NCBI GenBank assembly: GCA_903925075.1
Contig: CAIYDQ010000144.1
Coordinates: forward strand, 1-64,000
DNA: 64,000 nt
Source of the DNA: an uncultured Geobacter sp.
GTDB lineage: Bacteria > Desulfobacterota > Desulfuromonadia > Geobacterales > Geobacteraceae
Direction of reading: 5' to 3'
Below, one piece after another: positions 33,806 to 40,518 of this stretch. Both the position numbers and the translations under genes were made by a program. The notes under the pieces were generated by a model. That model made no database searches. It was not told the DNA's origin and saw nothing but the letters and a program-made list of their open reading frames with translations. The stretch's first letter is position 1. The number at the start of each line of letters is the position of its first letter.

Positions 33806-34924
33806 TTAGAGCCGCATCGGCATGATGACCGCCAGGAAGTCTTCCTCGGCCACCGCTTTCATGATCACCGGCGACAGCTCGTCCTTGAGCTTCAGCTCCA
33901 CTTCGCGGTCCTCCATGACGGAGAGCACGTCGATCAGGTACTTGGCGTTGAAGCGCGCCGAGATGTTGTTCCCCTCGTACTGCGCCTCGATCTCTTCGCG
34001 CGCCTCGCCCAGCTCCGGGTTACTGGAGGAGATGATGATCTGCTCCGGGCTCACCTCGATCTTTACCCCCTTGAACTTCTCGCTGGAGAGGATCGCCATC
34101 CTTTTCAGGGAATGGAGGAACTTGTCGCGGTTGACCTGCACGTTGCGGTCGTTGTTGACCGGTATCACCTTGGTGTAGTCCGGGAAGTCGCCGTCGATGA
34201 GCCGCATGACCACCACCGTGTTCCCCTTCATGATCACCGCGGAGTTGTCCATGAAACCGAGCATGATCTCGGAGGACTCCTCCTCGACCATCTTCTTCAG
34301 TTCGAAGATCCCCTTCTTGGGGAAGATCACGCCTTTGCTCAGCTCTTCGCTGATGTTGCCGGTGATGGTCTTTTGCGACAGCGACAGGCGATGGCCGTCG
34401 GTTGCCACCATCTTGAGCACGCTCTCGCCCCCCTCTTCGAAGGCCTTGATGAAGACGCCGTTCAGGTTGTACTTGGTCTCGTCGTAGCAGATGGCGTAGG
34501 CGGTCTTCTCGATCATCTCGCTGAGGATCTCGTTTTTGAAGACGATGAAGCTCTCTTCCTTGATCTTCGGGAAATAGGGGAACTCGTCGGAGGAAAGCCC
34601 GACGATGTTGAAGCGCGCCTTGCCGCAGACGATCTCCACCCAGTCGTTGTCCTTGGTGGAGAAGTGGATCTCCTCGTCCGGCATCTCCTTGACGATCTCG
34701 TAGAGTTTCTTGGCCGAGACCGTGATCTTCCCTTCCCGCATCACCTTGGCGGGGTAGGAGCTCTTCATGCCAACCTCCAGGTCGGTCGCCGTTATGTAGA
34801 GCAGATCGTTTTGCACCTCGAGCAAGGCGTTGGAGAGGATGGGCATGGTGTTTCGCTTTTCGACGATCCCCTGGATTCTTTGCAGGGCTTTCATAAAACT
34901 CTCTTTGCCGATTCTGAATTCCAT
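33806..34924 (-). CDS. dnaN: DNA polymerase III sliding clamp (beta subunit)
   Basis: The 372-residue protein has the three-fold clamp architecture and ends with the typical VIMPMRL. GAGGAGAGC precedes the ATG. It forms the ring that tethers polymerase to DNA. Its upstream gap contains the origin features, and the gene order dnaA-dnaN-recF-gyrB-gyrA on one strand is the ancestral bacterial one. Confidence 0.98.
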   Translation of the reverse strand: MEFRIGKESFMKALQRIQGIVEKRNTMPILSNALLEVQNDLLYITATDLEVGMKSSYPAKVMREGKITVSAKKLYEIVKEMPDEEIHFSTKDNDWVEIVCGKARFNIVGLSSDEFPYFPKIKEESFIVFKNEILSEMIEKTAYAICYDETKYNLNGVFIKAFEEGGESVLKMVATDGHRLSLSQKTITGNISEELSKGVIFPKKGIFELKKMVEEESSEIMLGFMDNSAVIMKGNTVVVMRLIDGDFPDYTKVIPVNNDRNVQVNRDKFLHSLKRMAILSSEKFKGVKIEVSPEQIIISSSNPELGEAREEIEAQYEGNNISARFNAKYLIDVLSVMEDREVELKLKDELSPVIMKAVAEEDFLAVIMPMRL

Positions 34925-35144
34925 CTGCTCTCCTCCGCCCTCAAGCTTCTATTGTTATGTTTTTAATCTTTTAAGTAGTAGTAGATAGTGGCCTGTTGAA
35001 AAGTTGACAAGGTCCGCTTCTCATTGGAATCGCTGGGTTTTACGGCCGGGAAAACTCCGGTTGTCAAAGCACCGGTTTGGCCGGTTTATGCACAGGCGCT
35101 CGGCTTTCGTCGCGCGGCGTGCCGTTTATGCACAGTTTTCCACA
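34925..35144. other. chromosomal origin oriC with a basal unwinding system
   Basis: This gap between dnaN and dnaA contains, read on the minus strand, DnaA boxes matching TTATNCACA or close variants (TTATGCACA at 35086-35094 and 35126-35134 and TTTTCCACA at 35136-35144, all in plus orientation; TTTTCAACA on the minus strand at 34994-35002), then GGCCA, then CTATCTACTACTACTT (34973-34988), then an AT-rich stretch (34940-34972). The order box, GC step, CTA repeats, AT-rich is the known DnaA-trio architecture of B. subtilis oriC. Confidence 0.82.
34976..34988 (-). promoter_or_regulatory. DnaA-trio repeats
   Basis: On the plus strand the bases read TAGTAGTAGATAG, so the minus strand carries CTA repeats beginning six bases from the box at 34994-35002. 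In established models DnaA assembles along the single strand of such trios to open the duplex. Confidence 0.7.
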
Positions 35145-36509
35145 TTACATGAACAGCTTTTTCTTGATGTCTTCCACAGTCATTTTCAGCTCGTTGTCGG
35201 CCGTCAACTGCTTCTCGATCTTCTTCACCGAGTGGATGATGGTGGAGTGATCCTTGCCGCCGAACTTCTCGCCGATCTCCGGATAGGAAGCCTTGGTGAG
35301 TTCGCGGCAGATATAGATCGCGATCTGGCGGGGCACCACCAGGGTCTTGATCCTCTTGTCCGACTTCATTTCCGACACCTTGATGCGGAAATGCTCCGCC
35401 ACGTGCTTTTGGATCATCTCGATGGTGATGTCGCGGGTCTTCTCGACGATGATGTCCTTCATCGCCTCGCGCGCCATCTCCAGGGTAATCTCTTTTGAGG
35501 TGAGGCTCGCCACCGCCTCCAGCCTGATCAGCATCCCTTCCAACTCGCGGATGTTGCTGGTCGCCCCTTCGGCGAGGAACAACGCCACGTCGTTGGGGAG
35601 GTTCTCCGCCTTCTTCTTGAGGATGGCGATCTTGGTCTCCGTGGAGGGTGGCTGGATGTCGGCGATCAGCCCCCACTCGAAGCGCGATCTGAGCCGCTCC
35701 TCCAGGCCGGGTATCTCCTTGGGAAACTTATCCGAGGTGACCACTATCTGCTTATGCGATTCGTACAGCGCATTGAAGGTGTGGAAGAACTCCTCCTGGG
35801 TGGCCTCCTTGCCGGCCATGAACTGGATGTCGTCGATGAGCAGCAGGTCCATCTTCCTGAACTTGTTGCGAAACTCGTCCATTTTCTTGTAACGCAGACA
35901 GTTGATCATCTCGTTCATGAATTTTTCGGAGGAGTAATAGCAGATCTTCGCCTTGGGGTTCTTGGCCAGAATCTGGTTGCCGATGGCGATCAGCAGATGG
36001 GTCTTGCCCAAACCCACGCCGCCGTAAATGAAGAGCGGGTTGTAGTTGGTGGCAGGCTTGTTGGCCACCGCCTGCGAGGCCGCATGGGCGAACTCGTTGC
36101 TTTTGCCGCAAACGAAGGATTCGAAGGTGTACTTGGGGTTCAAGTTCGGTATGAACTCGGACTTTCGGGCATCCTTTTCGGTTTCCTTCCCCTTCTCCTT
36201 GGCGGGCTTGTGATCTTTTTCCTGTTTTTGTTCCTTGTCCGGCTTTGATTCTTTCACGGCCGCGGGTTTCTGCTCGGCGATGTGGAATTCGATGTGGTAC
36301 ATCTCGGGGGTGACTGCTGCGATCGCTTCCTTGATCATGGACAAATACTTGTCGGTTATCCATTTTTGGAAGAATGAACTGGGGACTTCCACCACGATAG
36401 TATCGTTTGTCGCTCCTAAGAACTTCAGTGGGTCGATCCAGGTGCTGTAGGTCTGTTCGGTAAGCGTATTCTTAAGATTTGCCTGGGCATCCAGCCAAAC
36501 ATTTTCCAT
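35145..36509 (-). CDS. dnaA: chromosomal replication initiator protein DnaA
   Basis: The 454-residue protein starts at MENVWLDAQANLKNTLTEQT. Domain I (1-85) is followed by a Lys/Glu-rich linker (about 88-120), the AAA+ domain with GGVGLGKTHLLIAIGNQ and LLLIDDIQFMAGKE, and the DNA-binding domain IV with VVPRQIAIYICRELTKASYP and GKDHSTIIHSVKKIE. A short upstream frame lacks a better start. DnaA boxes lie both downstream (oriC) and upstream of the gene, so autoregulation is likely. Confidence 0.98.
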   Translation of the reverse strand: MENVWLDAQANLKNTLTEQTYSTWIDPLKFLGATNDTIVVEVPSSFFQKWITDKYLSMIKEAIAAVTPEMYHIEFHIAEQKPAAVKESKPDKEQKQEKDHKPAKEKGKETEKDARKSEFIPNLNPKYTFESFVCGKSNEFAHAASQAVANKPATNYNPLFIYGGVGLGKTHLLIAIGNQILAKNPKAKICYYSSEKFMNEMINCLRYKKMDEFRNKFRKMDLLLIDDIQFMAGKEATQEEFFHTFNALYESHKQIVVTSDKFPKEIPGLEERLRSRFEWGLIADIQPPSTETKIAILKKKAENLPNDVALFLAEGATSNIRELEGMLIRLEAVASLTSKEITLEMAREAMKDIIVEKTRDITIEMIQKHVAEHFRIKVSEMKSDKRIKTLVVPRQIAIYICRELTKASYPEIGEKFGGKDHSTIIHSVKKIEKQLTADNELKMTVEDIKKKLFM

Positions 36510-36546: not shown

Positions 36547-36566
36547 TTATCAACAACTGTTGAAAA
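36547..36566. promoter_or_regulatory. inverted pair of DnaA-box-like sites upstream of dnaA
   Basis: TTATCAACA (36547-36555) and TGTTGAAAA (36558-36566; reverse TTTTCAACA, as at the oriC trio) face each other two bases apart, about 40 bases upstream of the dnaA start. They could serve autorepression of dnaA or act as a second origin subregion in the AT-rich dnaA-rpmH gap. Confidence 0.55.
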
Positions 36567-39150: not shown

Positions 39151-40518
39151 ATGTACCTTCGCGACACCATCGCCGCAATCAGCACGCCGGTAGGGGAGGG
39201 CGGGATCGGGATCGTCAGGATCAGCGGCCCCGCCTCCCTGCCGATTGCCCGCGACATTTTCCAAGCTAAATCGAGCGGTGGCCTAAAAAGCCACCGTTTT
39301 TCTTATGGCAGCGTGCTGGATCCCGCCAGCGGCGCCTTGCTTGACGAAGCCATGCTGGTGTTCATGAAGGCGCCGAATTCCTACACCCGCGAGGACGTGG
39401 TGGAGATACAGTGCCACGGGGGCGCTCTTGTCGTGTCGCGCATCCTTTCCCTGGTGGTCTCCGCGGGCGCACGTTTGGCGGCACCGGGGGAATTCACCAA
39501 GCGCGCCTTTCTGAATGGTCGCATCGACCTGGTGCAGGCCGAGGCCGTCATGGACGTCATCTCCAGCCGCACCGATGCCGCCTTGTGCCTGGCCCAGCAT
39601 CAAAGGGAGGGACTCCTGTCCAGGCGGATTGCCGTCGTCAAAGATGGCATCCTCTACGCCCTGGCCTACGTCGAGGCGTTGATCGACTTCCCCGAGGAAG
39701 ACATCGACGTGGCGGTGGACACCGACGTGCTCGGGCGGGTGTCGCCGGCAGTGGCCGAGCTTGATGCGCTGATCGACGGTTTCGACGCAGGCAAGGTGCT
39801 GCGCGACGGGGTCTCCGTGATGATCGCCGGTAAGCCCAACGTCGGAAAATCGAGCCTGCTGAACACCCTGCTGAAAGAGAATCGGGCCATCGTCACCGCG
39901 GTCCCCGGCACCACGCGCGATCTGATCGAGGAAGTTGTCAACATCAACGGACTGCCGGTGAAACTGCTCGACACCGCCGGCATCCGGGATTCCGACGATC
40001 TGGTGGAGAAGGAAGGAGTGCGGCTGTCCCTCGCCAGGATACCCGTGGCCGATCTCGTGCTGTTCGTCGTAGACGCTTCAACTGCCTTCACTGTGGAGGA
40101 CGAAGCCATCCTTCAGGCCATTGGCGGCAAGTGTCTGATCGTGGTGCTCAACAAGAGCGATCTCCCCCGCGCGATAGAGCTTCCCGTCGGACTCACCGCT
40201 CAGACCGTTGCCATATCGGCTTTCGACGGCAGCGGTATACCTGAGTTGCGCGACGCCATCGCGGCCGCCTTCATGCATGGCGCGGCCATCGACGGCAGGG
40301 AATATGTGGCGGTGTCGCGTGCCAGGCATCGCGACGCGCTGCTCAAGGCCCGCGAGTCTTTGCGCAGTTTCGTCGCCAATTTGAGTGCCGGAGTGAACAT
40401 GGAGCTGTTGCCGATCGACCTGCGCGATGCCCTGAACGCGGTAGGCGAGGTGACCGGCGAGACCACCGTTGACGACGTGCTGGACCGCATTTTCTCCAGT
40501 TTCTGCATCGGTAAATGA
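39151..40518 (+). CDS. mnmE: tRNA modification GTPase MnmE
   Basis: The 455-residue protein has the tetrahydrofolate-binding N-terminal domain, a helical domain interrupted by the G domain (IAGKPNVGKSSLLNTLL, GTTRDLIEE, DTAGIRDSDD, NKSD) and the C-terminal CIGK containing the essential cysteine. With MnmG it installs the 5-aminomethyl or carboxymethylaminomethyl group on wobble uridines. MnmG lies 186 bases downstream after two parS sites. Confidence 0.97.
   Translation: MYLRDTIAAISTPVGEGGIGIVRISGPASLPIARDIFQAKSSGGLKSHRFSYGSVLDPASGALLDEAMLVFMKAPNSYTREDVVEIQCHGGALVVSRILSLVVSAGARLAAPGEFTKRAFLNGRIDLVQAEAVMDVISSRTDAALCLAQHQREGLLSRRIAVVKDGILYALAYVEALIDFPEEDIDVAVDTDVLGRVSPAVAELDALIDGFDAGKVLRDGVSVMIAGKPNVGKSSLLNTLLKENRAIVTAVPGTTRDLIEEVVNINGLPVKLLDTAGIRDSDDLVEKEGVRLSLARIPVADLVLFVVDASTAFTVEDEAILQAIGGKCLIVVLNKSDLPRAIELPVGLTAQTVAISAFDGSGIPELRDAIAAAFMHGAAIDGREYVAVSRARHRDALLKARESLRSFVANLSAGVNMELLPIDLRDALNAVGEVTGETTVDDVLDRIFSSFCIGK

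Follow-up and report, generated by a model that had tools for sequence, protein, structure and literature searches.

The 220-bp region between dnaA and dnaN in the window (the whole stretch of 64,000 nucleotides that was analyzed) appears to be a chromosomal replication origin opened by the basal unwinding system (BUS), in which residue 187 of DnaA would read the middle base of the DnaA-trios, here and across the relatives; we put the probability of this reading at roughly 0.85. Judged from its sequence, the window origin is an ordinary, well-formed member of this known origin type, and as such it is a clean extra case of a known mechanism. The surrounding comparison matters more. It suggests that a sister family, f4, altered its DNA triplets in step with a single amino acid of DnaA. 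With clearly less confidence, we also favor the view that the trio code can evolve and that most of it is set by a single DnaA residue: Asn187 would go with a middle adenine, Tyr187 of f4, along with a change of Tyr180 to Cys, would go with 3'-GTT-5' trios, and one lineage would have reverted both.

Read on the minus strand, the gap holds a DnaA box, a GC step, the trio array and an AT-rich stretch before dnaN, in the order claimed by the original prediction and running from position 35002 down to 34951 (Table 1). The array CTATCTACTACTACTT corresponds to 3'-GAT-5' trios on the opposite strand, and the box beside it, TTTTCAACA, differs from TTTTCCACA by one mismatch. Beyond the AT-rich stretch, the minus strand continues with a purine-rich stretch and then dnaN. 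Two TTATGCACA boxes and a TTTTCCACA box had also been placed on the minus strand nearer to dnaA; the boxes were found there, but on the plus strand, inverted with respect to the trio-side box. The gap contains four DnaA boxes with at most one mismatch. A box of this quality 10-11 bp past the dnaA stop, as at 35126..35134 in the window, was present in all 19 same-genus loci, while the offset of the box at 35086..35094 was shared only by the window's own locus (L014) and L025. The tandem box position reads TTGTCAACT in the window and TTGTCCACA in several relatives. Upstream of dnaA, an inverted pair of boxes like that of the window recurred in 17 of the 19 loci of the genus and in three of four g7 loci, and this pair could serve dnaA autoregulation or form a second origin lobe. 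An Rfam scan of the window gave zero matches.

Table 1. Features of the dnaA-dnaN region, with positions counted in the window.
Feature	Position	Strand	Basis or remark
dnaA-dnaN intergenic region, predicted oriC	34925..35144	-	Gap exactly bounded by two gene calls
dnaN	33806..34924	-	90% identity to Citrifermentans bremense
AT-rich stretch AAAAGATTAAAAACATAACAAT, presumed unwinding element	34951..34972	-	Sequence
DnaA-trio array CTATCTACTACTACTT, CTA-T-CTA-CTA-CTA-CTT	34973..34988	-	One-base slip
GC step GGCCA	34989..34993	-	Sequence
Trio-proximal DnaA box TTTTCAACA	34994..35002	-	Sequence
Possible degenerate tandem box TTGTCAACT	35002..35010	-	Three mismatches to TTATCCACA
DnaA box TTATGCACA	35086..35094	+	Box search
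DnaA box TTATGCACA	35126..35134	+	Box search
DnaA box TTTTCCACA	35136..35144	+	Box search
dnaA	35145..36542	-	Best PDB match 8btg, E 1.4e-135; GTG start as listed, possible alternative ATG at 36509
Codon of DnaA Asn aligned to B. subtilis Asn187	35913..35915	-	Residue 210 of listed ORF
Inverted DnaA-box pair upstream of dnaA: TTATCAACA (+), TTTTCAACA (-)	36547..36566	.	Box search

The cumulative GC skew of the window is lowest at 39188, which lies some 4 kb away from the gap in the direction of rpmH. In a complete relative (G045), the record of which begins elsewhere than at dnaA, dnaA lies at 3.84 Mb. Sampled 20-kb windows gave a skew of -0.0249 at 3.78 Mb, of -0.0052 over dnaA itself and of +0.0345 at 3.89 Mb; of the 20 windows sampled, several elsewhere in G045 were near zero, and its skew is weak overall. 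The skew turn near the gap supports a chromosome origin at this place without proving it, and the gap is probably the start of chromosome copying.

The BUS was described in B. subtilis (PMC6669920), and 1755 of 2070 species (85%) conformed to its rule in a later survey (PMC8287927). The original prediction regarded the window as a test of how general the mechanism is. It is a clean case, but the generality across bacteria had already been surveyed and tested in the same work (PMC8287927). The rule asks for at least one DnaA box adjoining the trios, which in the window is TTTTCAACA, for a spacer of at most 16 bp with a GC-rich step, here GGCCA followed by CTA, and for at least three consecutive 3'-NAN-5' trios, here CTA CTA CTA CTT in phase. 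The AT-rich stretch past the trios is present as well, at 34951-34972. A tandem second box is the commonest BUS arrangement (57% in the survey), yet it is not obligatory (PMC8287927). The order, the spacing and the conservation fit the predicted DnaA-trio origin.

Residues of DnaA were numbered by aligning the window DnaA to the B. subtilis DnaA of 8btg. Among the DnaA residues reported as contacts of the trio strand or as essential to it (Asn187, Ile190, Ile193, Arg202, Lys222, and Glu228) all were kept in the window DnaA (N187, I190, R202, K222, E228) except Ile193, which is replaced by Leu (L193); in addition, Asn196 is replaced by Lys. The middle adenine of a trio is hydrogen-bonded by Asn187, while the guanine is held by Arg202 and Glu228, and alanine at Asn187, Ile190, Ile193, Arg202 or Glu228 causes a severe growth defect (PMC10721633). 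In B. subtilis, a change of the middle adenine to G or T resulted in slower growth and rarer initiation than a change to C (PMC10721633).

In the mechanism that we propose, DnaA would bind the box adjoining the trios and oligomerize from there onto the strand with 3'-GAT-5' triplets, capturing two bases per triplet, and the duplex would open into the AT-rich stretch, as in the basal unwinding system of B. subtilis. By extension from the relatives, the middle base of each trio would be read by residue 187. This residue would have changed to Tyr or His in f4, with the trios of the Tyr genomes becoming largely 3'-GTT-5' (CAA on the dnaA-dnaN strand), and the lineage of genome G080 would have gone back to Asn and CTA trios. 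The covariation itself is observed, and from it we infer that the residue and trio changes compensate each other.

Within the window, only three matches to TTWTNCACA were found, all of them in the gap near dnaA, with 1.35 expected. Since three or more were reached in 17 of 100 shuffles, the number of boxes is unremarkable, and it is their clustering that represents the signal. The trio array is the single occurrence of (CTA)3 on either strand of the 64 kb. A box with at most one mismatch and (CTA)3 within 16 bp was found in none of 200 simulated windows, and the same box with any three CT[ATG] triplets within 16 bp had a mean of 0.015 per simulated window. The loose published rule (a box, then three NTN triplets) gave seven matches in the window compared to a simulated mean of 1.26, and is therefore weak evidence on its own. 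Loose scoring, whether by the NTN rule over the window or by an xAx run, was set aside due to poor discrimination, and strict counts of [CT]AA and CTN, plus an unaligned count, were adopted instead.

A search of the order Geobacterales found dnaA in 139 of 141 genomes. Twelve of the 141 were dropped, having no match, or fragments or weak matches only (G014, G048, G060, G066, G069, G071, G082, G083, G103, G132, G134, and G137), and 129 loci were used, 128 of them with a dnaA-dnaN gap (L046 has none). Loci L001-L013, which are of the same genus or family and apparent repeats of handle genomes, were left uncounted. The gap measures 205-254 bp in 123 of the 128 cases. The trio-side box ends at a median distance from the dnaA stop of 152 bp in family f1, 148 bp in f2, 151 bp in f3, and 148 bp in f4, and this distance was 144-155 bp in 45/45, 3/4, 12/12, and 54/67 gaps, respectively. 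Among the 14 gaps outside this range, nine (all from genus g27) were at 156-162 bp and five at 215-465 bp. A one-base slip in the trio array, with a pattern like that of the window, was seen in 44 of the 61 Asn-type loci of f1-f3.

All 62 loci of families f1-f3 encode Asn at DnaA residue 187. The 67 loci of f4 carry Tyr (54), His (12) or Asn (1) at this position. In the aligned zone, three in-phase trios with a middle A were present in 60 of the 61 f1-f3 Asn gaps and in the single f4 Asn gap, compared to three of 54 Tyr and six of 12 His gaps; classical trios are absent in 51 of the 54 Tyr187 loci of f4. The conservation of spacing and trios in relatives, on which the original prediction was staked, is borne out, with the distance from box to dnaA kept across the order and the in-phase trios kept in the Asn gaps of f1-f3. 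The reverse distribution was found for two or more in-phase [CT]AA triplets, which occurred in 42 of 54 Tyr and six of 12 His gaps, in none of the 61 f1-f3 Asn gaps and not in the f4 Asn gap. The unaligned count agrees with these aligned-zone counts: at least four CTN in 25 nt were present in 60 of 62 Asn loci (including G080), four of 54 Tyr loci, and two of 12 His loci. A change from CTA to CAA on the dnaA-dnaN strand corresponds to a middle base changed from A to T on the bound strand, resulting in 3'-GTT-5' trios. A model of dependent change was preferred over independent change with a likelihood ratio of 19.5 (asymptotic p 6e-4; 128 tips; the trait being at least four CTN), in a fit with few events and with several fitted rates at their bounds.

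The separation has exceptions. Three in-phase trios with a middle A persist in the Tyr genomes G135, G081, and G102, G065, G093, G102, and G123 retain three CTN, and CTN outnumbers CAA in nine of 54 Tyr loci. Among the 62 Asn loci, 15 have a CAA somewhere in the zone. The top-strand T is retained at trios 3 and 4 in most loci of g23, the largest f4 genus, and the His187 genomes are mixed, with six of 12 passing the classical rule. Loose xAx runs are more frequent in Asn (36/61) than in Tyr loci (16/54), which leaves the strict [CT]AA count alone to tell the groups apart. In DnaA, 27 columns distinguish f4 from f1-f3, residue 187 among them. Residue 180 covaries with residue 187, being Tyr in f1-f3 and Cys in f4, and at position 190, where the trio is bound as well, f4 has Val, a residue that G080 keeps; it is therefore possible that residue 187 does not act alone. 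The signal of the covariation comes from one family-level change and one single-genome reversal.

Genome G080 (locus L124) is the only f4 genome with Asn187, and its CTA trios are present: the gap has CTACTATCTACTACTT, where the g23 counterpart is, for example, CAACAATATACTACAA. In the ISM-masked DnaA tree the f4 loci fell together (67 loci, support 1.0) with G080 inside g23 (36 loci, 1.0), the other 35 members of which have Tyr or His; the position of G080 within g23 was moderately supported (0.73, 0.67). In the DnaN tree f4 likewise came together (66 loci, 0.999), and G080 grouped with 33 g23 members (34 loci, 0.86). All supports were read on unrooted splits. Among the 27 family-marking columns, G080 agrees with f4 at 25 and with f1-f3 at just one, column 187; its residue 180 is Phe. 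Its gap was most similar to f4 gaps. Horizontal transfer of the gene or the origin from f1-f3 into G080 was considered and rejected, because its DnaA, its DnaN, and its gap each fall in with f4.

Outside the order, in the rest of the class and phylum, Asn187 was found in 66 of 67 outgroup loci and Asp in one; this count omits three of 70 loci (L147, L149, and L151) which are order members. At least four CTN in 25 nt were present in 46 of the 62 outgroup gaps of at least 120 bp, with the Asp locus (L159) among the 16 gaps that lack them. Asn together with CTA is therefore most simply taken as the ancestral state. A coding pattern for Tyr or His at residue 187, KCNGARAARTTYAYGYAY, was looked for in a sample of 395 genomes of the phylum and matched 25 places in 24 of them. 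Five of these places are inside DnaA, one in each of the five f4 genomes of the sample, and none inside DnaA was found beyond these with this pattern, which covers only some codons and neighboring residues. Beyond the phylum, residue 187 is Gln in E. coli and Aeromonas, and Asn in Priestia and Acetoanaerobium, where it occurs with CTATTACTACTACTA or a close form.

Alphaproteobacterial DnaA proteins (L259-L262) are aromatic at residue 187, with Tyr in two Paracoccus, Phe in Sphingomonas, and Trp in Shinella. Four alphaproteobacterial regions upstream of hemE (L272-L275) were taken by us as candidate origins, with box clusters among the grounds. No CTA run beside a box was seen in them by eye, which speaks neither for nor against CAA trios. 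Three multi-megabase records labeled as plasmids (NZ_CP069303.1, NZ_OL790696.1, and NZ_CP104131.1) carry dnaA and hemE and are chromosome-like. Two frames of 264-294 amino acids (G034:C13:552343-553035 and G040:C1:3149615-3150313) matched only the AAA+ region of DnaA, at 48-51% identity, which is nearer to DnaA than we would expect for an Hda-like protein. The f4 genome G085 carries a second nearly full-length DnaA-like frame (G085:C218:2668-3936) at 44% identity, due to either contamination or a paralogue.

The gap could be an origin and still be opened as in E. coli, the AT-rich stretch melting by torsion, TTRT being recruited, and the CTA run being incidental. TTGTTATG, found in the AT-rich stretch on the plus strand, is a match to the TTGT/TTATT motifs of PMC10316083, of a type common in AT-rich DNA, and in T. 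maritima the annotated trios are merely supportive while TAG repeats farther from the box are essential (PMC10316083). An incidental CTA run agrees poorly, however, with its being kept beside the box in f1-f3, with the CTN runs of most outgroup gaps (46/62), and with the retention of Asn187 and most other contact residues, and we consider opening of this kind improbable. Opening by the BUS remains our reading of the window.

With respect to f4, the CAA triplets may reflect neutral drift or another motif, residue 187 having changed for an unrelated reason, so that both are markers of shared ancestry. Most of the signal does come from one clade, and 26 further DnaA columns mark f4 as well. Yet residue 187 is the single one of the 27 columns at which G080 goes with f1-f3, and CTA trios are present in this genome too; the GC content is unchanged by a change from CTA to CAA, and a contact of residue 187 with the middle base was reported independently (PMC10721633). 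We find this explanation rather unlikely. A switch of strands by the f4 DnaA would also provide a middle adenine, as CAA has one on the dnaA-dnaN strand, but the polarity of the oligomer would need reversing even though the distance from box to dnaA is unchanged in 54 of 67 f4 gaps, and Asn, the adenine contact, was lost instead of kept; such a switch appears very improbable indeed.

If residue 187 does read the middle base of the trios, the window would represent the reference state for an apparent natural switch, and switch back, of the triplet read by DnaA. This would be a natural re-coding of initiator and origin that was later reversed, and it would account for some of the origins missed by the middle-adenine rule. 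Since the Asn/CTA and Tyr/CAA pairs and the back-switch are found in one order, recognition should be testable via one residue and a few bases. In a literature search, with most subscription papers outside its scope, no earlier report of covariation between residue 187 and the trios was found. The basis for the recognition of different single-strand motifs by DnaA remains to be elucidated according to PMC10316083, and its sole remark on coevolution concerns a linker and origin architecture.

Compared to known systems, incC of B. subtilis likewise has a box, a short GC step, 3'-GAT-5' trios, and an AT-rich stretch, and its DnaA shares most contact residues. It differs in having seven boxes (PMC6669920), compared to the four within one mismatch in the window, where in addition the trio array has a one-base slip and the tandem partner box is degenerate. 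The B. subtilis array is continuous as quoted in PMC10316083, whereas the arrays of the window and of most f1-f3 loci are slipped. With respect to the BUS origins of PMC8287927, the main text of which names no Geobacter, the window falls within the published rule, while 51 of the 54 f4 Tyr genomes fail it at the middle adenine in the aligned zone. These represent the deviant kind of trio, lacking the middle adenine, that the authors of the survey suspected (PMC8287927). The eTrio of T. maritima oriC has TAG repeats on the bound strand, a feature shared with the window, and differs in the greater distance of the essential repeats from the box (PMC10316083). E. coli has Gln at DnaA residue 187 and an oriC apart from dnaA; on the bound strand the f4 triplets spell TTGTTG, which overlaps TTGT of its ssDUE motifs TTGT/TTATT.
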